DNA from: an uncultured Sutterellaceae bacterium
GTDB lineage: Bacteria > Pseudomonadota > Gammaproteobacteria > Burkholderiales > Burkholderiaceae_F
Assembly: GCA_902797695.1 (NCBI GenBank)
Contig: CADBTW010000061.1
Span: 1-39,083 of the forward strand
Length of the DNA stretch: 39,083 bases
Reading direction: 5' to 3'
The position numbers and the translations under genes are program-made. Of the stretch, positions 285 to 38,997 are shown one piece after another (within the stretch, counting starts at the first letter, position 1; the number at the start of each line of letters is the position of its first letter). The notes under the pieces are model-generated. The model was not told where the DNA came from. It worked only from the letters and a program-made list of their open reading frames with translations, and did no database searches.

Positions 285-1853
285 CTACGACTCGGCCGAC
301 TTCAGGATCCCGAGCTTCTGGAGGCGGCTTCGGAGCGTGTTCGGGTTGAGGCCGCAGATTCTTGCCGCCCCCCTGGGGCCCGAGATCCTCCCGAGCGTCC
401 GCCCGAGCACCGCCCTGAAGTAGAGCCGCTGCATCTCTTCGAACGTGAGTTCCGAAAGACTGTCGGCAGAAAGCCTGGGGGCAGGGGACACAGGAACAGG
501 ACACTCTTCCTTCACCGCGACGTATGGCGAATCGGGTACGAGCCTCGTCACCCGCGCTCCCTCCTGCAGCACCGCGCGCTCCGCCGCGTTCTCAAGCTCC
601 CGGACATTCCCGGGCCAGCGGTAGGAGGCGGCTTCCTGCAGGGCGTCCGCCGTAACCTCGGGATCCCCCTCCACGCCGTACTTCTTCGCGAACTGCCGGA
701 CGAAGAGGAGGGCGAGGCTCTTCAGGTCGCGGGGCCGCTCGCGAAGCGGCGGAACCCGGATCGGGAAGACGGCGAGCCGATAGTAGAGGTCCTCCCGGAA
801 GCGCCCGTCCCGGACGAGCGACGCGAGGTCGCGGTTCGTCGCCGCGATGATCCGGACATCGACCTTGATCGGCTTCTCGCCCCCGACCCGCGTGAAGGAT
901 CGGGCCTGGATCGCCCGAAGCAGCTTCACCTGGGCGAGAAGCGGGAGCTCGCCGACCTCGTCTAGGAAGAGAGTCCCCCCGTCCGCCTGCTCGAAGTACC
1001 CGATGTGGCGGCTCCGGGCGTCAGTGAACGCGCCGCGCTCGTAGCCGAAGAGCTCGCTTTCGAGCAGGTTCTCCGGAATCGCCCCGCAGTTCACGGCGAT
1101 GAAGGGGCCGGACCGCCTCGGGGACATCCGGACCGCCGCCCGGGCGACAACCTCCTTCCCGACGCCTGACTCCCCCTCGATCAGGATCGTGACTCCGGAA
1201 GGCGCCGCCCGGAGGAGCTTTTCCGCCACCTCTCCGAGGTCCGGGGAATTCGCGGTGAGCGCGCGCGCCGCCGCCCGTTCGTTCCCTTCGAGCGCCTTCT
1301 TCAGCCGCTCGTTCTCGATGTCGAGGCTCCGGACGCAGATTTGCGAAGCCCAGGTGGAGAGCGGAAGGAGAAGGGACGAGACAAACCGGGCGTTATCTGC
1401 CGTGAAGGCACCAGGTCTCCGGCTCCAGAAGGCGACGATCCCGACGTGGCGCCCGCCGAGCTCGAGCTGCTGCATGACGAAGGACCCGATTCCCGGGACC
1501 AGGTCCCGTGTCGCCGCCTCAGTCACCGGGTCCTCAGAAATGTCCCGGACGAGAAGGGTCTGGGGGCGTCCTCCCTTCCTGAGGAGCGCCGCGGACTCCT
1601 CCGTCACCTTCACGTCCACCGTGTCGGGCCATTCCCGCTCATCAGTTGCCCGGGCGTAGAACCGGATCACGCCTTCCCCCGGAAGGTACGTGTTCACGAA
1701 GACCCCGTCCGCAGGGATCCCGAATTCCCGGACGATCCGGACGAGCTCGGTGAGCCTCGGGCGCTCCTCGCCCTTCCTCACGCTCGAAAACCGTTCGAGG
1801 AACCGGAAGAAAGATTCCTCTGCCCGGAACAGGCTGTCCTTCCTCTCCGCCAT
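285..1853 (-). CDS. sigma-54-dependent transcriptional activator (GAF-like, AAA+, Fis HTH)
   Basis: A 522-residue NtrC/NorR-type enhancer-binding protein that would use ATP hydrolysis to open sigma-54 promoters. The N-terminal ~180 residues look like a GAF-type ligand-sensing domain and carry no receiver Asp pattern. The AAA+ domain has Walker A GESGVGKE (227-234), Walker B TLFLDE (294-299) and the sigma-54 contact loop GAFTDA (274-279), where most relatives have GAFTGA. A Fis-type helix-turn-helix closes the protein (AARICGLNPNTLRSRLQKLG). I chose the ATG at 1853 because GGAGGG lies just upstream; longer starts would run into the palindromic sites at 1893-1941. It is divergent from the reductase-cytochrome-lyase-porin run, whose promoter is of the sigma-54 type, so it is very probably the dedicated regulator. 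The effector is unknown; the module's substrate is the obvious candidate. Confidence 0.93.
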   Translation of the reverse strand: MAERKDSLFRAEESFFRFLERFSSVRKGEERPRLTELVRIVREFGIPADGVFVNTYLPGEGVIRFYARATDEREWPDTVDVKVTEESAALLRKGGRPQTLLVRDISEDPVTEAATRDLVPGIGSFVMQQLELGGRHVGIVAFWSRRPGAFTADNARFVSSLLLPLSTWASQICVRSLDIENERLKKALEGNERAAARALTANSPDLGEVAEKLLRAAPSGVTILIEGESGVGKEVVARAAVRMSPRRSGPFIAVNCGAIPENLLESELFGYERGAFTDARSRHIGYFEQADGGTLFLDEVGELPLLAQVKLLRAIQARSFTRVGGEKPIKVDVRIIAATNRDLASLVRDGRFREDLYYRLAVFPIRVPPLRERPRDLKSLALLFVRQFAKKYGVEGDPEVTADALQEAASYRWPGNVRELENAAERAVLQEGARVTRLVPDSPYVAVKEECPVPVSPAPRLSADSLSELTFEEMQRLYFRAVLGRTLGRISGPRGAARICGLNPNTLRSRLQKLGILKSAES

Positions 1854-1892
1854 CCTGCCCTCCGATGGAATTAAATGGTCCCGGCGACATTC

Positions 1893-1941
1893 ACGAAATT
1901 TCGTCATTTCATGAAGCAACGTCAATTGTACGATATTTCGT
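1893..1941. promoter_or_regulatory. paired palindromic sites, probable enhancer (UAS) of the sigma-54 activator
   Basis: ACGAAATTTCGT at 1893-1904 is a perfect 12-bp palindrome. ACGATATTTCGT at 1930-1941 is the same with one change. Flanks match too: ATTC before the first and GAAT after the second, in inverted arrangement. Centres are 37 bp apart. They lie roughly 105-155 bp upstream of the sigma-54 promoter, the usual enhancer distance, and 40-90 bp upstream of the activator's own start, so autoregulation is also possible. Binding by the activator is inferred from position. Confidence 0.7.
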
Positions 1942-2045
1942 GAATTAGGGGAATTTTAATCTCCGCTCGCTTTTTTCTGAGGAAATCTGCCTAAGCCTTG
2001 GGGACAAAAGGATTATTCGACCGCATAGTGCGAAAGGATTAAAAC

Positions 2046-2062
2046 TGGCACGCCTCTTGCTT
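2046..2062 (+). promoter_or_regulatory. sigma-54 (-24/-12) promoter of the reductase operon
   Basis: TGGCACG-CCTC-TTGCTT matches the sigma-54 consensus TGGCACG-N4-TTGCW closely. The invariant GG (2047-2048) and GC (2059-2060) are separated by exactly 10 bases. Transcription would start near 2072, leaving a leader of about 40 bases before the ATG at 2114. This rules out upstream in-frame starts for the reductase and links the operon to the divergent activator. Confidence 0.92.
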
Positions 2063-2113: not shown

Positions 2114-3640
2114 ATGCAAACGAACGAGATGGCCCCGGTCCAGAGCCGCAGGCGTTTCCTCGCCGGAGCGGCCGCCGCCGCTGCCGCTGTCGCGGCCCCT
2201 TCCGCAAACGCTGCCGCGAAGAAGGTCGCCTTTGACAAGATTTTCGACGTGATCGTCGTGGGTTCCGGGTTCGCGGCCCTCGCCGCGGCGCTCCGCGCGA
2301 AGGAAGAGGGGGCGTCGGTTCTTCTCGTTGAGAAGATGCCCGCCTTCGGCGGCAACTCCGCGATCAACGGCGGCGCGTTCGCGGTCGCCGGTTCTCCCCT
2401 CCAGGAGAAGGAAGGAATCAAGGATTCCCCTGAACTCATGCTGAAGGACATGATCCGCTCGGGCCGCGGACTCTCCCACGTCGACCTCCTCAAGATGATC
2501 GTCGAGGGCACCCGCCCGGCGTTTGACTGGGTCGTGAAGTACGGCGTCAAGTTCAAGCCCTTCGTGCAGCACTTCGGCGGCCACAGCGTTCCCCGCATCA
2601 TGCAGACGCTCGAGTCGACCGGCGGCGGCATCACGCGCCCGCTCACCGAAGCCTGCGCGAAGAACGGGGTCGAGCTCCACAAGCGCTGCCTGATGGAAGA
2701 CTTCGTCCGCAACGATTCCGGCCGCATCATCGGAATCCGCGCCCGCGAGGGCTACCTCTTCCCGAACGAGAAGTCTGGGGTCCCAATGACCTACGGCGCC
2801 CGCCGCGGGGTCGTGATGGCGACCGGCGGCTTCGCCCGTAACATCTGGTTCCGCAAGCAGCAGGACCCGCTCCTCGACGAGCGGCTCGACTCGACGAACC
2901 AGCCGGGAGCCACCGGCGAAGGCCTCCTCAAGATGCTTTCGATCGGCGCCGCCCCGGTGCAGCTTGACCAGATCCAGCTCGGGCCCTGGTCGAGCCCCGA
3001 GGAAAAGGGTTTCGGGCTCGTGAGCCAGTTCAACACGATCGCCGGGTTCCCGATGGGGATCATGGTCGACCCCCGCACCGGCCGCCGCTTCTGCAACGAG
3101 CTCGCCGACCGCAAGGAGCGCGCTGACAAGATCCTCACGATGATCGAGAACGGGAAGCCCGTCTACCCGATCTGTTTCACGGACTCGAAGGGGGTCGAGA
3201 AGGCCCAGACCCTGAAGAACGGCCTGAAGTACAACGTGATCCACAAGTTCGACACGCTCGAAGGGATCGCGAAGGCGTTCGGAATGCCGGTCGCTCCCTT
3301 CGTGAAGCAGGTCGAGGAGTTCAATGGCTATGTGAAGGCGAAGAACGACACCCAGTTCCACCGCCCGCTCCAGCTCGCGATCGTTCTCGACAAGCCGCCC
3401 TTCTACGCCGTGAAGGTCTGGCCGAAGGTCCACTACTGCATGGGCGGCGCCGCGATCAGCCCGAAGGCCGAGGTGCTTGACGTCATGGGGAAGCCAATCC
3501 CCGGGCTCTTCGCAGCGGGCGAAGTGACGGGAGGAGCGCACGGCGCGAGCCGGCTTGGCGGGTGCGCCATCGCCGACGGCCTCTGCTTCGGTCGCATCGC
3601 GGGCGAAACCGCGGCCCACAACAAGGCCGCCTCGATCTAA
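2114..3640 (+). CDS. Tat-exported FAD-dependent acrylate-type reductase (fumarate/urocanate reductase family)
   Basis: A 508-residue flavoprotein of the flavocytochrome c/fumarate reductase family, expected to reduce the C=C bond of an unsaturated carboxylate in the periplasm. A twin-arginine signal (SRRRFLAG, 11-18) and an Ala-rich stretch end near ANA|A (33/34). The FAD-binding GSGFAA is at 50-55. The catalytic-type Arg (ADRKERAD, R333) and the late motifs HYCMGGA (H440) and GASRLGG (R480) are kept. Where fumarate reductases have the first substrate His (QAHPT), this protein has QIQLGPW, so fumarate is an unlikely substrate. It has no heme domain; the tetraheme partner is the next gene, 20 bases downstream. 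Start: ATG 2114 behind GAGGAG. The lyase-like neighbour suggests an aromatic or imidazole acrylate such as urocanate or cinnamate, but I could not place the published urocanate-specific residues with confidence. Confidence 0.9.
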   Translation: MQTNEMAPVQSRRRFLAGAAAAAAAVAAPSANAAAKKVAFDKIFDVIVVGSGFAALAAALRAKEEGASVLLVEKMPAFGGNSAINGGAFAVAGSPLQEKEGIKDSPELMLKDMIRSGRGLSHVDLLKMIVEGTRPAFDWVVKYGVKFKPFVQHFGGHSVPRIMQTLESTGGGITRPLTEACAKNGVELHKRCLMEDFVRNDSGRIIGIRAREGYLFPNEKSGVPMTYGARRGVVMATGGFARNIWFRKQQDPLLDERLDSTNQPGATGEGLLKMLSIGAAPVQLDQIQLGPWSSPEEKGFGLVSQFNTIAGFPMGIMVDPRTGRRFCNELADRKERADKILTMIENGKPVYPICFTDSKGVEKAQTLKNGLKYNVIHKFDTLEGIAKAFGMPVAPFVKQVEEFNGYVKAKNDTQFHRPLQLAIVLDKPPFYAVKVWPKVHYCMGGAAISPKAEVLDVMGKPIPGLFAAGEVTGGAHGASRLGGCAIADGLCFGRIAGETAAHNKAASI

Positions 3641-3660: not shown

Positions 3661-4029
3661 ATGAAAATGAACGCCATGAAGAAAATCGCCGCCCTCGCCC
3701 TTTCGCTCGGGGCCTTCGCAACGGGCGCCTTCGCCGCTTCCGCGATGCCGATGGGAAAGCACCACGCGCAGATGAAGTGCGAGGCGTGCCACACGCCGCA
3801 GAACGCCGTGAAGGGGAACGCCTTCGTGCCGCCCTCTGACAAGACCTGCGAAGGCTGCCACGGCTCCTACAAGGACCTCGCGAAGAAGACCGCTGGCGGG
3901 TCGGAACCCAATCCGCACTACTCCGCGCACTACGGCACGAGCCTCTCTTGCTCGGCCTGCCACAAGCAGCACTCGGAGCCGAAGTCCTACTGCAACAACT
4001 GCCACGCCTTCCGCCACACGATGCCGTAG
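3661..4029 (+). CDS. periplasmic tetraheme cytochrome c (electron donor to the reductase)
   Basis: A 122-residue protein with a Sec signal (cleavage near AFA|A, residue 25) and four CXXCH heme sites: CEACH (40-44), CEGCH (63-67), CSACH (97-101) and CNNCH (111-115). Extra His residues (34, 35, 86, 90, 104, 119) could be distal ligands. This matches the small tetraheme domain that is fused to the flavin domain in Shewanella flavocytochromes c; here it is a separate gene just after the flavoprotein. It should carry electrons from a membrane quinol dehydrogenase (not in this window) to the reductase. AAGGAG at 3652-3657 can serve the ATG at 3661 or the in-frame ATG at 3667; the exact start is not certain. 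Confidence 0.93.
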   Translation: MKMNAMKKIAALALSLGAFATGAFAASAMPMGKHHAQMKCEACHTPQNAVKGNAFVPPSDKTCEGCHGSYKDLAKKTAGGSEPNPHYSAHYGTSLSCSACHKQHSEPKSYCNNCHAFRHTMP

Positions 4030-4133: not shown

Positions 4134-5783
4134 ATGACCAAGACTCGTGTCATCGCCGCCGCCGTCGCCATGGCTTTCGCCGGCACCGCGTTCGCGGGAA
4201 CCGTCCAGCTTGACGGCCATCACCTCACGATGGAGCAGGCCTGGGACGTCGCGAACGGGAAGTCGACCGTCGAGATCGCGCCTGAGGCGAAGACCTTCAT
4301 CGTCAACTCCCACAAGCTCGTGATGGCAGCGGCCGCCCAGGGGAAGCCCGTCTACGGCCTCACCACCGGCGTTGGCCTCAATAAGGACAAGAAGCTCTTC
4401 GACGCGAGCGGCAAGCTCACGAAGGAAGTGCTCGACGCCTCCCGCGCCTTCAACTACAACGCCTTCCGCGCCCACTCCGCCGGCATCGGTCCGATGATGC
4501 CCGAGAACCTCGCGCGCCTCTCCATGGTGATCCGCCTGAACACGATGCTCGCCGGGCAGACCGGTGCCCAGTACCGCGTGGCCGAGCTCTACCGCGACTT
4601 CCTCAATAAGCACATCACCCCCGAGATCCCCTCCCGCGGCACGATCGGCGAAGCTGACATTCTCCTCGCCTCGCACGTCGGCAGCGTGATGATCGGCGAG
4701 TGGAAGGCCCGCGTCGACGGGAAGCTGATGACTGGCGCCGAGGCGCTCAAGGCGAAGGGCATCACGCCGCTCGTTCCTGAAGGCAAGGACGCGCTCGCGG
4801 TGCTCTCGAACAGCTCGGTCGCGATGGCCTACACGCTCGACGGCTACAAGAAGGCGGCCCAGGTCGTGAAGACGACGCCGGTCGTCTTCGGCCTCTCGCT
4901 CGAAGGCCTCAACGGCAACGTCGCCCCGTTCCTCCCGCAGACCGTCGCCGTCCGCCCGTTCCCGGGCCTCGCTGACGCCGCGGCGTCGCTTCGCGTGTCG
5001 CTGAAGGGCTCCTACCTCTGGCAGCCGAACGCCGAGCGTCCGCTCCAGGACCCGCTCTCCTTCCGCACCACGGTCTACGCGCTCGCCGAGGCGAACAACG
5101 CCCTCAAGGACCTGAAGAAGGTGATCGACGTCCAGATCAACGCGGGCGACGACAACCCGGCTACGATCCTCAACGCGAAGCAGGACTACCGCGCTGAAAG
5201 CCGCCAGGTCGCGAACTACTTCGTCGACGGCGCTGACGTGAAGGGCGCGATCATCCCGAGCGCGAACTTCGAAGTGCTCCCGGTCGCCCTCGCCGTGCAG
5301 CGCGCGTCGCTCGCGATGGCGCACCTCTCGCACTGCGCGGTGCAGCGCACGATCCACCTCTCCGACGACCACTTCACCGGGCTCTCCCGCTTCCTCACGG
5401 CGGCCGGCAACAAGGGCCACGCCTTCGGCGCGATCCAGAAGGCCTTCATGGGGATGCACGTTGACACGATGGCCCTCGCGCAGCCGGTTTCCCTCTACGG
5501 CATGCCTGTCGCGGGCGACATCGAGGACACCTTCACGCAGCTCCTCCAGACCGGTGACCGTCTTGGCCAGATCGCCGAGAACACCCGCTACGTCTACGGC
5601 CTCGAGCTCCTGCACGCGGCCCAGGCGATTGACCTCCGCAGGATCAAGAGCGGCAAGTTCGCGATGAGCTCTGACACCGACAAGCTCTACACCGCCTTCC
5701 GCAAGGTCTCCCCGTTCGTCGACCGCGACCGTCAGTTCACCCCTGACATCGAGAACGCCGCCCGCCTGATCGGCGAGTGGTAA
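4134..5783 (+). CDS. secreted histidine/phenylalanine ammonia-lyase homologue lacking the MIO triad
   Basis: 549 residues: a Sec signal (1-21, cleaved at AFA|G), then a full-length aromatic amino-acid lyase fold. Family landmarks are kept: VYGLTTG (Tyr74), RAHSAGIG (His114), LSNSS (Asn226), QDPLSFR (Arg311), DDNPAT (339-344) and NFEVLP (Phe379). However, the loop that should read G-S-V-G-A-S-G-D reads GTIGEAD (169-175). It is one residue short and has no Ala-Ser-Gly, so the MIO electrophile cannot form in the usual way. The catalytic Tyr of YSLR is Leu308. Ordinary HutH/PAL enzymes are cytoplasmic, so the signal peptide is also unusual. It probably binds or converts the reductase's substrate in the periplasm; ammonia-lyase activity should not be assumed. 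TAGGAG at 4119-4123 precedes the ATG. The 104-bp gap before it has a small AAGCGG/CCGCTT hairpin touching this ribosome site. Confidence 0.85.
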   Translation: MTKTRVIAAAVAMAFAGTAFAGTVQLDGHHLTMEQAWDVANGKSTVEIAPEAKTFIVNSHKLVMAAAAQGKPVYGLTTGVGLNKDKKLFDASGKLTKEVLDASRAFNYNAFRAHSAGIGPMMPENLARLSMVIRLNTMLAGQTGAQYRVAELYRDFLNKHITPEIPSRGTIGEADILLASHVGSVMIGEWKARVDGKLMTGAEALKAKGITPLVPEGKDALAVLSNSSVAMAYTLDGYKKAAQVVKTTPVVFGLSLEGLNGNVAPFLPQTVAVRPFPGLADAAASLRVSLKGSYLWQPNAERPLQDPLSFRTTVYALAEANNALKDLKKVIDVQINAGDDNPATILNAKQDYRAESRQVANYFVDGADVKGAIIPSANFEVLPVALAVQRASLAMAHLSHCAVQRTIHLSDDHFTGLSRFLTAAGNKGHAFGAIQKAFMGMHVDTMALAQPVSLYGMPVAGDIEDTFTQLLQTGDRLGQIAENTRYVYGLELLHAAQAIDLRRIKSGKFAMSSDTDKLYTAFRKVSPFVDRDRQFTPDIENAARLIGEW

Positions 5784-5910: not shown

Positions 5911-7038
5911 ATGAAAAAATTCCACATCGCCGCCGTCGCCGCTACCATCGCGCTCGCCGCCGGCTCCGCCGTCGCGGCCGAGCCTTCCGTCACTCTCTAC
6001 GGCGTCGTCGACACGGGCCTCCAGTACACCCATGTCGAGAACTCCTCGAAGGACGTCTTCGAAATGAACTCCGGCAACTACGCGGGCTCCCGCTGGGGCC
6101 TGAAGGGCTCCGAGAAGATCGCCGGGAACACGAGCGTCGGCTTCATCCTCGAGTCGGGCTTCGCCTCCGACACCGGCACTTCCGGTCAGGGCGGAAAGCT
6201 CTTCGGCCGCGAGGCGCAGATCTACGTCTCCGGCAACTACGGCCGCTTCGGCGCGGGCCGCGTCGGCGCCTTCACTTCCGGCTCCTCCTCCCTCTCCCGC
6301 TACTGGGACTTCGAGCCGTTCGAGACCGGCTACACCGACGCCGGCATCCAGGCTACGCAGGTGAATGTGTGGTCGCTGCACAGCAACACCCTCTACTACG
6401 TGTCGCCGAAGTTCTCCGGGTTTGAGTTTGGCGCCCAGTACGCTCTCGCGGGCGACGCGGACAAGGAAACTACCGGACTCGCGAACGACGACCACTTCGC
6501 AAACGCCTACGTCCGCTGGGACGGGAAGAACGCGAAGGCGATCGCGGGCCTCGAATACTACCGCGTCGGCCACGCGAACCAGTCGAGCTACCCGAACAAG
6601 GACCGGTGGTCCGCGAAGCTCGCCGGGGCCTGGACCCCGAACGGCGGCCCCGCGACCCTCTTTGCTGGCTACAACTACTACCGGAACCAGGCGAAGTTCG
6701 CGGACTCCACGTGGGACGACGACGGGCTCGTCCAGTATGACGAGAGCGGGAAGGGCCTCGAAGGCCACGCCTTCTACCTCGGCGGCCGCTACAACATCGG
6801 CGCCGCGAGCCTCCTCGCCCAGTTCCAGTTCCTCACCGGGAAGAACAAGGGCGCCCGCACGGGTGACGACGACGAGTACAAGCGTTACGTCGCTTCCCTC
6901 GGCTGCCACTACTTCTTCTCGAAGCGCACGATGGGCTACGCCGTCGCGAGCTACGCGAAGGGCACCGGCCTTCTCGACCAGGACGAGGGCGGCTCGAACC
7001 GCGTCGTTACGACTGTCGGCGTGACGCACTGGTTCTAA
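5911..7038 (+). CDS. outer-membrane general porin (Gram-negative porin family)
   Basis: A 375-residue beta-barrel porin. It has a signal peptide ending AVAA|EPS (about residue 23), the SVTLYGVVDTGLQY start typical of betaproteobacterial trimeric porins, the family motif SRWGLKGSE, alternating aromatic strands, and a C-terminal Phe (THWF) for barrel assembly. It is last in the sigma-54-controlled run and followed by a clear terminator, so it probably admits the substrate or releases the product of the periplasmic reductase. AGGA at 5896-5899 is the likely ribosome site. A paralogue of equal length lies at 7509-8636 on the other strand. Confidence 0.93.
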   Translation: MKKFHIAAVAATIALAAGSAVAAEPSVTLYGVVDTGLQYTHVENSSKDVFEMNSGNYAGSRWGLKGSEKIAGNTSVGFILESGFASDTGTSGQGGKLFGREAQIYVSGNYGRFGAGRVGAFTSGSSSLSRYWDFEPFETGYTDAGIQATQVNVWSLHSNTLYYVSPKFSGFEFGAQYALAGDADKETTGLANDDHFANAYVRWDGKNAKAIAGLEYYRVGHANQSSYPNKDRWSAKLAGAWTPNGGPATLFAGYNYYRNQAKFADSTWDDDGLVQYDESGKGLEGHAFYLGGRYNIGAASLLAQFQFLTGKNKGARTGDDDEYKRYVASLGCHYFFSKRTMGYAVASYAKGTGLLDQDEGGSNRVVTTVGVTHWF

Positions 7039-14035: not shown

Positions 14036-14402
14036 TGGTGGAGCTGGCGGGAGTCGAACCCGCGTCCGCAAATCGTCCAAGGACGGTTCTACATGCTTAT
14101 CTGATGAACTTTAGAGTCTCGGCCGCGGCCATGCCCTCAGCAGGCCATCCGCGGTCCAGCCGCTTGTTCTCGACCCCGCCGTCACGGCTCCGGCGAAGTA
14201 CCAGCCTGAGAAATATGGCGCTGCTGTCGGTTTTACCCGACCCGGCCCTCAGGCGAACCGGTGCAGCGTCCCGCTGGATTAAGCAGCGAGAGCGTAACGC
14301 TCGTTATTGGCGTTTATTGCTTTCCGAACTGTTTTACGAGGATCTCGGACCTCGGCATGCCCCGTGCCCCTTCGTGACCCACGTCGAAACCAAGGCAGCC
14401 CC
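14036..14402 (-). ncRNA. ssrA: transfer-messenger RNA (tmRNA)
   Basis: A one-piece tmRNA of about 367 nt that rescues stalled ribosomes and tags the nascent protein for proteolysis. The 5' end GGGGCTGCCTTGGTTTCGAC and the 3' end with the T-arm GGGTTCGACTCCCGCC and acceptor AGCTCCACCA are diagnostic. The reading frame at 14311-14279 encodes the tag ANNERYALAA followed by TAA, ending in the usual LAA protease signal. TAAGAT on the minus strand (14413-14418) is positioned as a -10 box; I see no clear -35. The terminator lies at 13992-14026. Confidence 0.97.
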
Positions 14403-37554: not shown

Positions 37555-38853
37555 TCAGGAATATCCATAGCCGTCACCGCGCTGCAGGAGCCTGCAGTGC
37601 CGCCAGCAGATTCCCTGCACTGTCCCAGAGGCGGTTTGAATGTTGAAGCCGCCGGATTTCCGGACGGCAACCCGGCCCTTGTAGTGTCCGGCCTTCTTGC
37701 CCTTCGAGACGAAAGCTTCGACCATGTCACCGGTAGCGAAGCCGTGGACCATTTTCTTTCGGGTCCGGTAGCCTCTTGGGAAACCATAAGCGTTGGTAAG
37801 GGTACGGCAATAGACTCCCCGCCCGGTGCATCTGATTCGGAGCACGTCAAGGTCGGGGTCAAACTCGACCCCGTTGATGCGACCGGCACAGGCGGCGTCA
37901 AACCAGTGCTCTTTCGGAACATGGAAAGCATGGCGGTTGAATTTCGTCAGAGCACCGGATGGCGCCTTGACCGGAAGCCCTGTCACTGCCTTGAGTGACC
38001 TGAGAAGGGCCCAGCGGGTACTGTTCACGACCCCAGCGTCCTGAAGGGGTTTCTTGAGTAGGGCCTTTACCCGTTTATACACGCGGGGTTGTCCCTTCAG
38101 GAAATCCTCGAGTGTCCGGCTGCCTTTTTTCTGATTGCAGGAAACGCACGCGAGCACAAGGTTGGACAGACGGTTCGAGCCCCCGGCTGCTTTTGGAACA
38201 ACGTGGTCGACGTTCAGAGGCACGTTGGTCCTGCCGCAGTACACGCACTTTCTGCCAAATTTTTCCAGCAGATATTCCCGGACGTTGTAACCATAAAGTT
38301 CGCCGTGCATGTAATCTGTACCGACAGCCGTGGGGTGTTCCAGCTTGAACGTATCGAACTTCACCAGCTCCTGAGTAATTCCAGCAACGGGCGCCAGCCT
38401 GCAGAGGCGCTGTACCCAGGCTGAGGTTGTCACTACCCGGTGCCGCAGGCTGGGCGAGAGCCAGCCCTTTGGCCTTGCACGATTGGAAAAGCGGGGCTTC
38501 CGATATCGCAAATGGGTGGTGCGCCTTTGGTTTCTATTCATTGCGCGAATTAGCAGGGCTTGGTGGATACTTTCCCCGCGGTGGGCAAGACAGAAAAAGG
38601 CAAGCGCATGATGCACCTTTTTTTCGTCTTCCCGAACAACGGCCATTCCCGTTTTCCGGGAGCCCGGGTCGATTTTGACGATGACGGGCTGTACTGCGGA
38701 TTTCTCCAGCAACCTGTCAGTCAGCCGGATGGTAAACGGATACAAACGGGCTATACGCGCGCGTCCCGATTTGAGAAGACGCCGCGCCCGTGCCGCCGAG
38801 CACGGCATGAGAGGTCGTTTCTTCTTGTCGAGAACAAAGACACGAGTAGTCAT
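37555..38853 (-). CDS. iscB: IscB RNA-guided HNH/RuvC nuclease
   Basis: A 432-residue IscB, the transposon-encoded ancestor type of Cas9. Parts in order: PLMP domain (KKRPLMPCSAARARRLL, 11-27), RuvC-I (KIDPGSRKTG, D62), Arg-rich bridge helix (NQRRTTHLRYRKPRFSNR), RuvC-II (ITQELVKFD, E162), HNH (CVYCGRTNVPLNVDHVVPKA with H217, then RLSNLVLACVSCNQKKG), RuvC-III (EHWFDAAC, H316/D319), and a C-terminal TAM-interacting part. All catalytic residues are present and the frame is intact, so it is probably active. ATG 38853 starts at the PLMP domain; AAGGAAA lies about 12 bases upstream. No tnpA transposase is in the window, as is common for iscB. The omega-RNA is expected directly upstream. Confidence 0.95.
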   Translation of the reverse strand: MTTRVFVLDKKKRPLMPCSAARARRLLKSGRARIARLYPFTIRLTDRLLEKSAVQPVIVKIDPGSRKTGMAVVREDEKKVHHALAFFCLAHRGESIHQALLIRAMNRNQRRTTHLRYRKPRFSNRARPKGWLSPSLRHRVVTTSAWVQRLCRLAPVAGITQELVKFDTFKLEHPTAVGTDYMHGELYGYNVREYLLEKFGRKCVYCGRTNVPLNVDHVVPKAAGGSNRLSNLVLACVSCNQKKGSRTLEDFLKGQPRVYKRVKALLKKPLQDAGVVNSTRWALLRSLKAVTGLPVKAPSGALTKFNRHAFHVPKEHWFDAACAGRINGVEFDPDLDVLRIRCTGRGVYCRTLTNAYGFPRGYRTRKKMVHGFATGDMVEAFVSKGKKAGHYKGRVAVRKSGGFNIQTASGTVQGICWRHCRLLQRGDGYGYS

Positions 38854-38997
38854 TATGTAAAAGGTTTCCTTACGGATGCGGGATTTCTCCCGTGACGCCT
38901 GCCCGAAGCAGGTCTCCCTTCGCCAATGTTGATGCCCGGCGTTGCCTTCCGTTCCCGTTTCATGGATACCCAAACCTTGTCTGCTGAACGAAATTCC
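38854..38997 (-). ncRNA. probable omega-RNA (HEARO-type) of iscB
   Basis: The 144 bases upstream of iscB, same strand, have no reading frame of note but many short stems: AAACC/GGTTT across the 5' part, CGCC/GGCG, CCTGC-TTCGG-GCAGG, and CGGGAGAAATCCCG just before the gene. Position and structure fit the omega-RNA of IscB systems, whose guide lies at the 5' end, here near the junction with the 86-bp repeat. Boundaries and guide are not defined by the sequence alone. Confidence 0.6.

Follow-up and report, generated by a model that had tools for sequence, protein, structure and literature searches.

A putative exported and MIO-independent lyase of the ergothionase branch encoded with a flavin reductase in gut Sutterellaceae

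Background

The closest described relative of the lyase analysed here is the ergothionase of T. denticola (PDB 6s7j/6s7q), a protein with the PF00221 fold and without the Ala-Ser-Gly (ASG) triad. It has no MIO and yields trimethylamine and thiourocanic acid (PMC13405746, cited here from an excerpt). According to the same excerpt, thiourocanic acid supports the growth of a gut Bacteroides by cross-feeding, in which ergothioneine is converted to thiourocanate that is then used anaerobically (Zhou 2025, cited in PMC13405746).

A second related system is the reductive histidine pathway of HutH and UrdA, in which a lyase and a flavin reductase turn an imidazole amino acid into the corresponding propionate during anaerobic growth (PMC13320830, preprint, 2026, excerpt). 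In that excerpt, Parasutterella excrementihominis converts 13C6-histidine to 13C6-imidazole propionate, and 'hutH' is stated to co-localise with urdA in Burkholderiaceae. An MIO-free lyase on the PF00221 fold is thus already known in ergothionase. Here we describe a locus of an uncultured, Mesosutterella-like Sutterellaceae bacterium in which a lyase of this kind, with a signal-like N-terminus, is encoded together with a flavin reductase and a multiheme cytochrome.

Results and discussion

Operon and promoter

The window, that is, the whole stretch of 39,083 nucleotides that was analysed, contains the following features:

285..1925, minus strand: sigma-54-dependent activator (AAA+) in divergent orientation to the operon, with a tentative start codon (Pfam Sigma54_activat, 8.6e-69)
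2045..2061, plus strand: sigma-54-type promoter CTGGCACGCCTCTTGCT, a pattern match facing the reductase
2114..3640, plus strand: flavin reductase of the fumarate/urocanate-reductase family with a Tat-like signal (SRRRFLAG; TIGR01813 flavocytochrome c, 2e-145)
3661..4029, plus strand: tetraheme cytochrome c (4 CxxCH) with a signal-like N-terminus, start inferred (PF14537, 1.2e-14)
4134..5783, plus strand: type A lyase of the ergothionase branch, MIO-free and apparently exported, with Tyr74, Lys84, Glu173, Ser225, Leu308, Lys436 and Glu464
5911..7038, plus strand: porin, possible outer-membrane entry (PF13609, 7.2e-33)
14036-14402, minus strand: tmRNA gene (Rfam)

Reductase, cytochrome, lyase and sigma-54 regulator are found together in the window and in 8/8 relatives with a lyase of the same type (type A). 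In each of these eight loci a relative of the activator lies beside the reductase and a relative of the tetraheme cytochrome is present. The sigma-54-type promoter motif faces the reductase in 8/8 type A loci scanned, as a weak variant in G063; the pattern has four matches on both strands of the 39-kb window, the operon promoter included. The porin is not part of every type A locus, as none was recognised in L036, L039, and L045. Export signals on the lyase, reductase, and cytochrome were all assigned by inspection. The window's own genome encodes one NapC/NirT-type cytochrome. Elsewhere in the window, a protein with RRXRR and HNH domains (37555-38973, minus strand) is IscB-like; no omega-RNA family was matched in the window, where the Rfam gathering search gave only tmRNA and tRNA.

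Active-site residues of the lyase

The lyase is encoded by an unbroken open reading frame of 549 amino acids (4134-5783, plus strand) and covers the PF00221 profile end to end (E 1.7e-115, Pfam profile search). Its loop reads RGTIGEADI, whereas VGASGDL stands at this position in 21/21 histidine ammonia-lyase (HAL) rows of a 50-row site table (20 fetched sequences plus that of P. putida). With no Ser-Gly pair in this loop, MIO could not form by the known route. Leu308 aligns with the catalytic HAL Tyr280, and HAL Asn195 (Asn in 21/21 HALs) aligns with Ser225, a column that is also Ser in type A (8/8), types B (7/7) and C (4/4), the soil homologues (5/5), and T. denticola ergothionase. Tyr74, His114, Arg311, and Phe379 align with HAL Tyr53, His83, Arg283, and Phe329 (HAL numbers above 316 are shifted by +3, the aligned HAL row being three residues short). 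The N-terminus (MTKTRVIAAAVAMAFAGTAFA/GT) resembles a Sec signal peptide by inspection. The lyase thus shares with HutH, the MIO-type HAL, the fold and the Tyr53, His83, Arg283, Phe329, and Glu414 columns, but is without Ala-Ser-Gly, Tyr280, and Asn195, and scores far under the NCBIfam hutH cut-off (263 vs 539 bits). An ordinary HAL was ruled out, since loop, Tyr, and Asn are all absent. The initial annotation of this gene had described a full-length ammonia-lyase homologue with a signal peptide, lacking both the MIO triad and the catalytic Tyr, and these points agree with the alignments, the profile match, and the Sec-like N-terminus. Among the landmark residues that it listed as kept, Tyr74, His114, Arg311, and Phe379 stand, but Asn226 does not, since the HAL Asn aligns with the neighbouring Ser225.

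An ordinary HAL might in principle show such a loop through a mistake in sequencing or assembly, and an error at 4640-4660 had been raised as a possibility in the initial annotation. This was refuted by the relatives, as the seven other type A rows likewise lack ASG and have loops of the matching form GEADI. The intact 549-residue frame also speaks against an error, as does the comparison with an 89%-identical relative (dN 0.086, dS 0.60, dN/dS about 0.14), by which the lyase is under purifying selection. We regard the probability of such an error as negligible.

Placement in the ergothionase branch

Ergothionase 6s7j is the best PDB sequence match of the window lyase (290 bits vs 180 for the next, a HAL). 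It is also the top fold match (E 2.6e-31; HAL 1.4e-25) of an AlphaFold model built from 15 lyases of the exported clade, with a pLDDT of 84 that falls below 50 at residues 12-20 and in two active-site loops (170-175 and 459-467). A 50-row tree separates ergothionase and the exported clade from the HALs (100/99), with the caveat that T. denticola ergothionase is a long branch (1.59), to which the long-branch warning applies. The tree omits the G047 lyases, which nearly duplicate those of G044, as well as the lyases of G052, G055, and G020, which are broken or cut; the loops of the G047, G052, and G055 lyases were read separately. L053 was left out of both site table and tree.

At 25 columns, type A (8/8) agrees with ergothionase and differs from at least 20/21 HALs. 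These include Lys84, Glu173, Ser225, Leu308, and Lys436, and Lys occurs at the Lys84 and Lys436 columns in 0/21 HALs. Tyr53, Lys63, Lys383, and Glu411 of ergothionase, which we take to be its four essential residues and which were reportedly established by Maurer in 2019, correspond to Tyr74, Lys84, Lys436, and Glu464 of the window lyase. Ergothionase Ser194 and Leu277 are likewise matched at the aligned columns, together with Lys63, Lys383, and Glu411, and the loops share the form IGE-x-D (IGEGD in ergothionase). The ergothionase-type residues are invariant in 8/8 type A rows. By the sequence tests run here, the window lyase belongs to the ergothionase branch. It is unlike T. denticola ergothionase in its signal-like N-terminus and its reductase/cytochrome operon, and the two are only 37.8% identical.

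The idea that the MIO-free lyase might form a new branch of the family did not survive this comparison, because its nearest solved relative, ergothionase, has already been described as lacking MIO. The accompanying proposal of the initial annotation, that the fold was re-used for another job tied to the reductase, a non-MIO lyase being one of its options, is supported in that form by strong linkage and co-occurrence. Comparison with relatives, which it had suggested as a check, found signal-peptide-like N-termini and reductase neighbours to be common to them. What appears to be new by sequence is the exported, reductase-coupled sub-branch. The literature matches listed contained no description of such an arrangement, and no paper among them dealt with a hercynine lyase or a periplasmic ergothionase.

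Distribution and co-occurrence

Nine of 67 family genomes carry lyase A (61-100% identity), and the same nine carry reductase A (70-100%); two of them (G044 and G047) are near-copies. The next best full-length match to reductase A is only 48% identical, and Fisher's exact test on 9/0/0/58 gives p = 2e-11 with the genomes treated as independent despite their kinship. The reductase search scored the best 22 first-look candidates per genome, so that weak distant copies could escape it; lyase A is absent from G049, where reductase A occurs as a 66% fragment. Named carriers are Mesosutterella porci, Sutterella wadsworthensis 2_1_59BFAA, Sutterella seckii, and an uncultured Duodenibacillus. The presence of type A is patchy, and G045 and G046, a pair of genomes from the same genus, lack PF00221 genes altogether. 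With at most three candidates scored per genome, 4 of 399 genomes in an order-level sample gave a match at E<=1e-60, all within the Sutterellaceae family and with no close relative outside it; in a phylum-level sample 24 of 398 genomes did so at E<=1e-45, all but the window's own being only 26-31% identical.

The loss of MIO and of the catalytic Tyr might suggest that the window protein is a pseudoenzyme, exported for binding and without catalysis. We consider this very improbable, given that ergothionase, a characterised enzyme in the PMC13405746 excerpt, is without the same features, that the ergothionase residues do not vary within type A, and that the lyase is under purifying selection and co-occurs with its reductase.

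The partner flavin reductase

The best PDB match of the window reductase is UrdA (6t85), at 37% identity. Several UrdA ring-pocket residues are exchanged in it (Tyr373 to Gly, Glu177 to Ala, Phe243 to Gln, and Arg390 to Gly), and Asp388 is replaced by Gln or Ile, depending on the alignment. Arg411, His520, and Arg560, which bind or protonate the acrylate in UrdA (PMC7921117, excerpt), are kept. So are two of the three lid Phe residues (245 and 391), which are found in 0/11 other family reductases that are 43-45% identical to the window reductase. A Pfam profile search found no FMN domain (FMN_bind) in this protein. Judged by these residues, the pocket is different from those of both UrdA and fumarate reductase, and both identities were ruled out for the partner. 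The retained acrylate residues in combination with the altered ring pocket would fit an imidazole-like acrylate other than urocanate, with thiourocanate as the obvious choice. This organism and its relatives have dozens of candidate flavin reductases per genome, each perhaps serving another acceptor; the window's own genome has 62 first-look candidates, and the best 19 of these include no UrdA match at E<=1e-120.

Proposed pathway

Our preferred reading, held with moderate confidence, is that the window lyase is exported, works without MIO as a member of the ergothionase branch, and converts ergothioneine to thiourocanate in the periplasm, thereby feeding thiourocanate respiration. The lyase would most likely eliminate trimethylamine from ergothioneine in the periplasm, giving thiourocanate. 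Saturation of thiourocanate to thio-imidazole propionate would fall to the Tat-type flavin reductase, whose gene lies two positions upstream of the lyase gene. Its electrons would be drawn from the quinol pool by a NapC-type quinol dehydrogenase and delivered via the tetraheme cytochrome of the operon. Such a periplasmic route, with electrons from the quinol pool, would make ergothioneine a source of respiratory acceptor without import. We infer substrate, product, location, and electron path alike from gene content and sequence.

The scheme resembles thiourocanate cross-feeding as outlined in the PMC13405746 excerpt. Cross-feeding splits the work between two species, whereas the window operon appears to encode both steps, with export signals. 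It also resembles the HutH-UrdA pathway in pairing a lyase with a flavin reductase. Unlike that pathway, the window pair consists of a type A lyase with ergothionase residues and a reductase that is not UrdA, and the lyase that is linked to UrdA is of another type (type B).

Sister types and a possible route from histidine to imidazole propionate

Full-length type B lyases are 53-57% identical to the window lyase, and lyases of a third type, C, are 35-38% identical to it. Type B adjoins a reductase in 9/9 distinct loci with readable neighbours (L034, L035, L038, L041, L043, L047, L048, L049, and L050); of the two remaining loci, L005 is a near-copy and L051 is truncated where its contig ends. 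The nine neighbouring reductases are 57-63% identical to UrdA and all carry its Glu177, Phe243, Phe245, Tyr373, Asp388, Arg390, Phe391, Arg411, His520, and Arg560; FMN_bind is present in 2/2 scanned. Since its partners carry the UrdA specificity residues, lyase B should supply urocanate. UrdA is present in 25/67 genomes (E<=1e-120; best 19 or fewer candidates per genome) and type B, intact or broken, in 11/67. Many genomes have UrdA without any lyase, so UrdA does not need one. The type B lyase genes of G052 and G055 (L049 110-1267 and L050 7988-9398) contain in-frame stops beside a UrdA-type gene and may be decaying.

In 7/7 rows, type B departs from type A and ergothionase in having Asp for Glu173, Thr for Ile434, Asp for Lys436, and Glu for Ala460, and it differs from them at 399 as well. 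Its pocket gains acids where ergothionase has Lys; Lys would suit a thione and acids an imidazolium. Type C has Gln at the His114 and Lys436 columns (4/4 rows) and probably uses another ring. Reductase and cytochrome adjoin the lyase in two of three type C loci (L044 and L046), and neither was recognised beside that of L037. As types B and C keep the fold and lose Lys436, the substrate has shifted within the exported clade.

PF00221 genes occur in 24 of the 67 family genomes. Thirteen of these have exported-clade members only, with MIO-free loops in 12 and the loop part missing in G020. The other 11 have a HutH-like gene, with ASG in 10 and the loop missing in the G040 fragment. UrdA and a HutH-like gene occur together in 0/67 genomes, and all UrdA-linked PF00221 genes with a readable loop in these genomes are MIO-free. 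The GC content of about 47-50% in stretches of G048 and G049 would fit Parasutterella, so that their genus (g15, G048-G050) may be Parasutterella. If it is, a lyase without MIO would account for the histidine activity of Parasutterella, type B being the simplest choice, unless an unrelated route is used, for example transamination plus dehydration. Taken together, the MIO-free loops of the UrdA-linked genes and the conversion of histidine to imidazole propionate by Parasutterella suggest that type B may be an MIO-independent histidine (or hercynine) lyase. A role as hercynine lyase only, derived from the pairing with UrdA, was dropped in view of the histidine data in the PMC13320830 excerpt, and histidine ranks as at least as likely a substrate as hercynine. 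Histidine deamination by type B, if true, would mean that MIO is not obligatory for this reaction on the PF00221 fold.

These findings bear on whether the window lyase itself might be an MIO-independent ammonia-lyase, with ammonia in place of trimethylamine as the leaving group and histidine or a thio-histidine-like amino acid as the substrate. Such an activity would be in keeping with the urocanate expected from sister type B, whose nine neighbour reductases have all the listed UrdA residues, and with the absence of genomes combining a UrdA match with a HutH-type PF00221 gene. The labelled-histidine experiment in P. excrementihominis and the placement of hutH beside urdA in Burkholderiaceae (PMC13320830, excerpt) point the same way. 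Type A, on the other hand, keeps the ergothionase residues that are changed in type B (Glu173, Ile434, Lys436, and Ala460), and the window reductase is not UrdA-like at the ring pocket, which makes an ammonia-lyase distinctly unlikely here. The trimethylamine elimination that we favour carries one caveat: should plain histidine be deaminated by type B, the window lyase need not depend on a trimethylammonium leaving group.

Soil plasmid relatives and other possible betaine substrates

Homologues on soil plasmids (Paracoccus, Burkholderia arboris, Sinorhizobium meliloti, and Polaromonas) are 37-43% identical to the window lyase, and the five examined of 88 records (L076-L080) have signal-like N-termini by inspection and no ASG. 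Unlike the window, three annotated soil stretches list no such reductase; in one of them, a 'flavin reductase family protein' of small size lies at a distance of about 8 kb. Coupling to a reductase is therefore not a feature of the whole exported clade. The Paracoccus saliphilus copy lies directly after hutI-hutH-hutG-hutU, the Polaromonas copy follows a YeiH-family gene, and the S. meliloti copy is without Lys436. Outside the exported clade, another MIO-free PF00221 clade (L057, L060, and L075; GS[IV]GAADLA, LQKP, no Lys84) comes from one genus, g260, which belongs to another class in the phylum sample, and a bathyarchaeal PF00221 protein (L007 2517-4094) has a normal ASG loop and Gln at the Glu464 column.

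The window lyase could also eliminate trimethylamine from hercynine, ergothioneine sulfonate, or another N-trimethylated aromatic amino acid. For T. denticola ergothionase, the sulfonate serves as a substrate too, the soil homologues follow a hut operon or a YeiH-family gene, and a reductase pocket that is neither UrdA- nor fumarate-like would be compatible with such a substrate. Hercynine would yield urocanate, though, and this fits poorly with a partner reductase without Tyr373 and with a window genome that has no UrdA match at the threshold and among the candidates given above. We consider these other betaines unlikely substrates, and ergothioneine remains the one that we prefer.

Conclusions

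The exported MIO-independent lyases and their respiratory flavin reductases might be seen as a radiation within gut Sutterellaceae, in which type A breathes ergothioneine, type B is the MIO-free histidine ammonia-lyase behind the imidazole propionate of Parasutterella, and type C acts on a third aromatic substrate; as a whole, we offer this scheme only tentatively. If the reading proposed for type A is correct, gut bacteria with a gene that looks like a HAL degrade the dietary antioxidant ergothioneine outside the cytoplasm, releasing trimethylamine and using the lyase product for respiration. Ergothionase has been judged rare among gut microbes by BLAST, with divergent homologues noted as uncovered (PMC13405746, excerpt), and the exported lyase genes described here would be such divergent homologues. 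Type B raises the further question of whether histidine can be deaminated on the PF00221 fold without MIO, which bears on the origin of imidazole propionate, a diabetes-linked metabolite.
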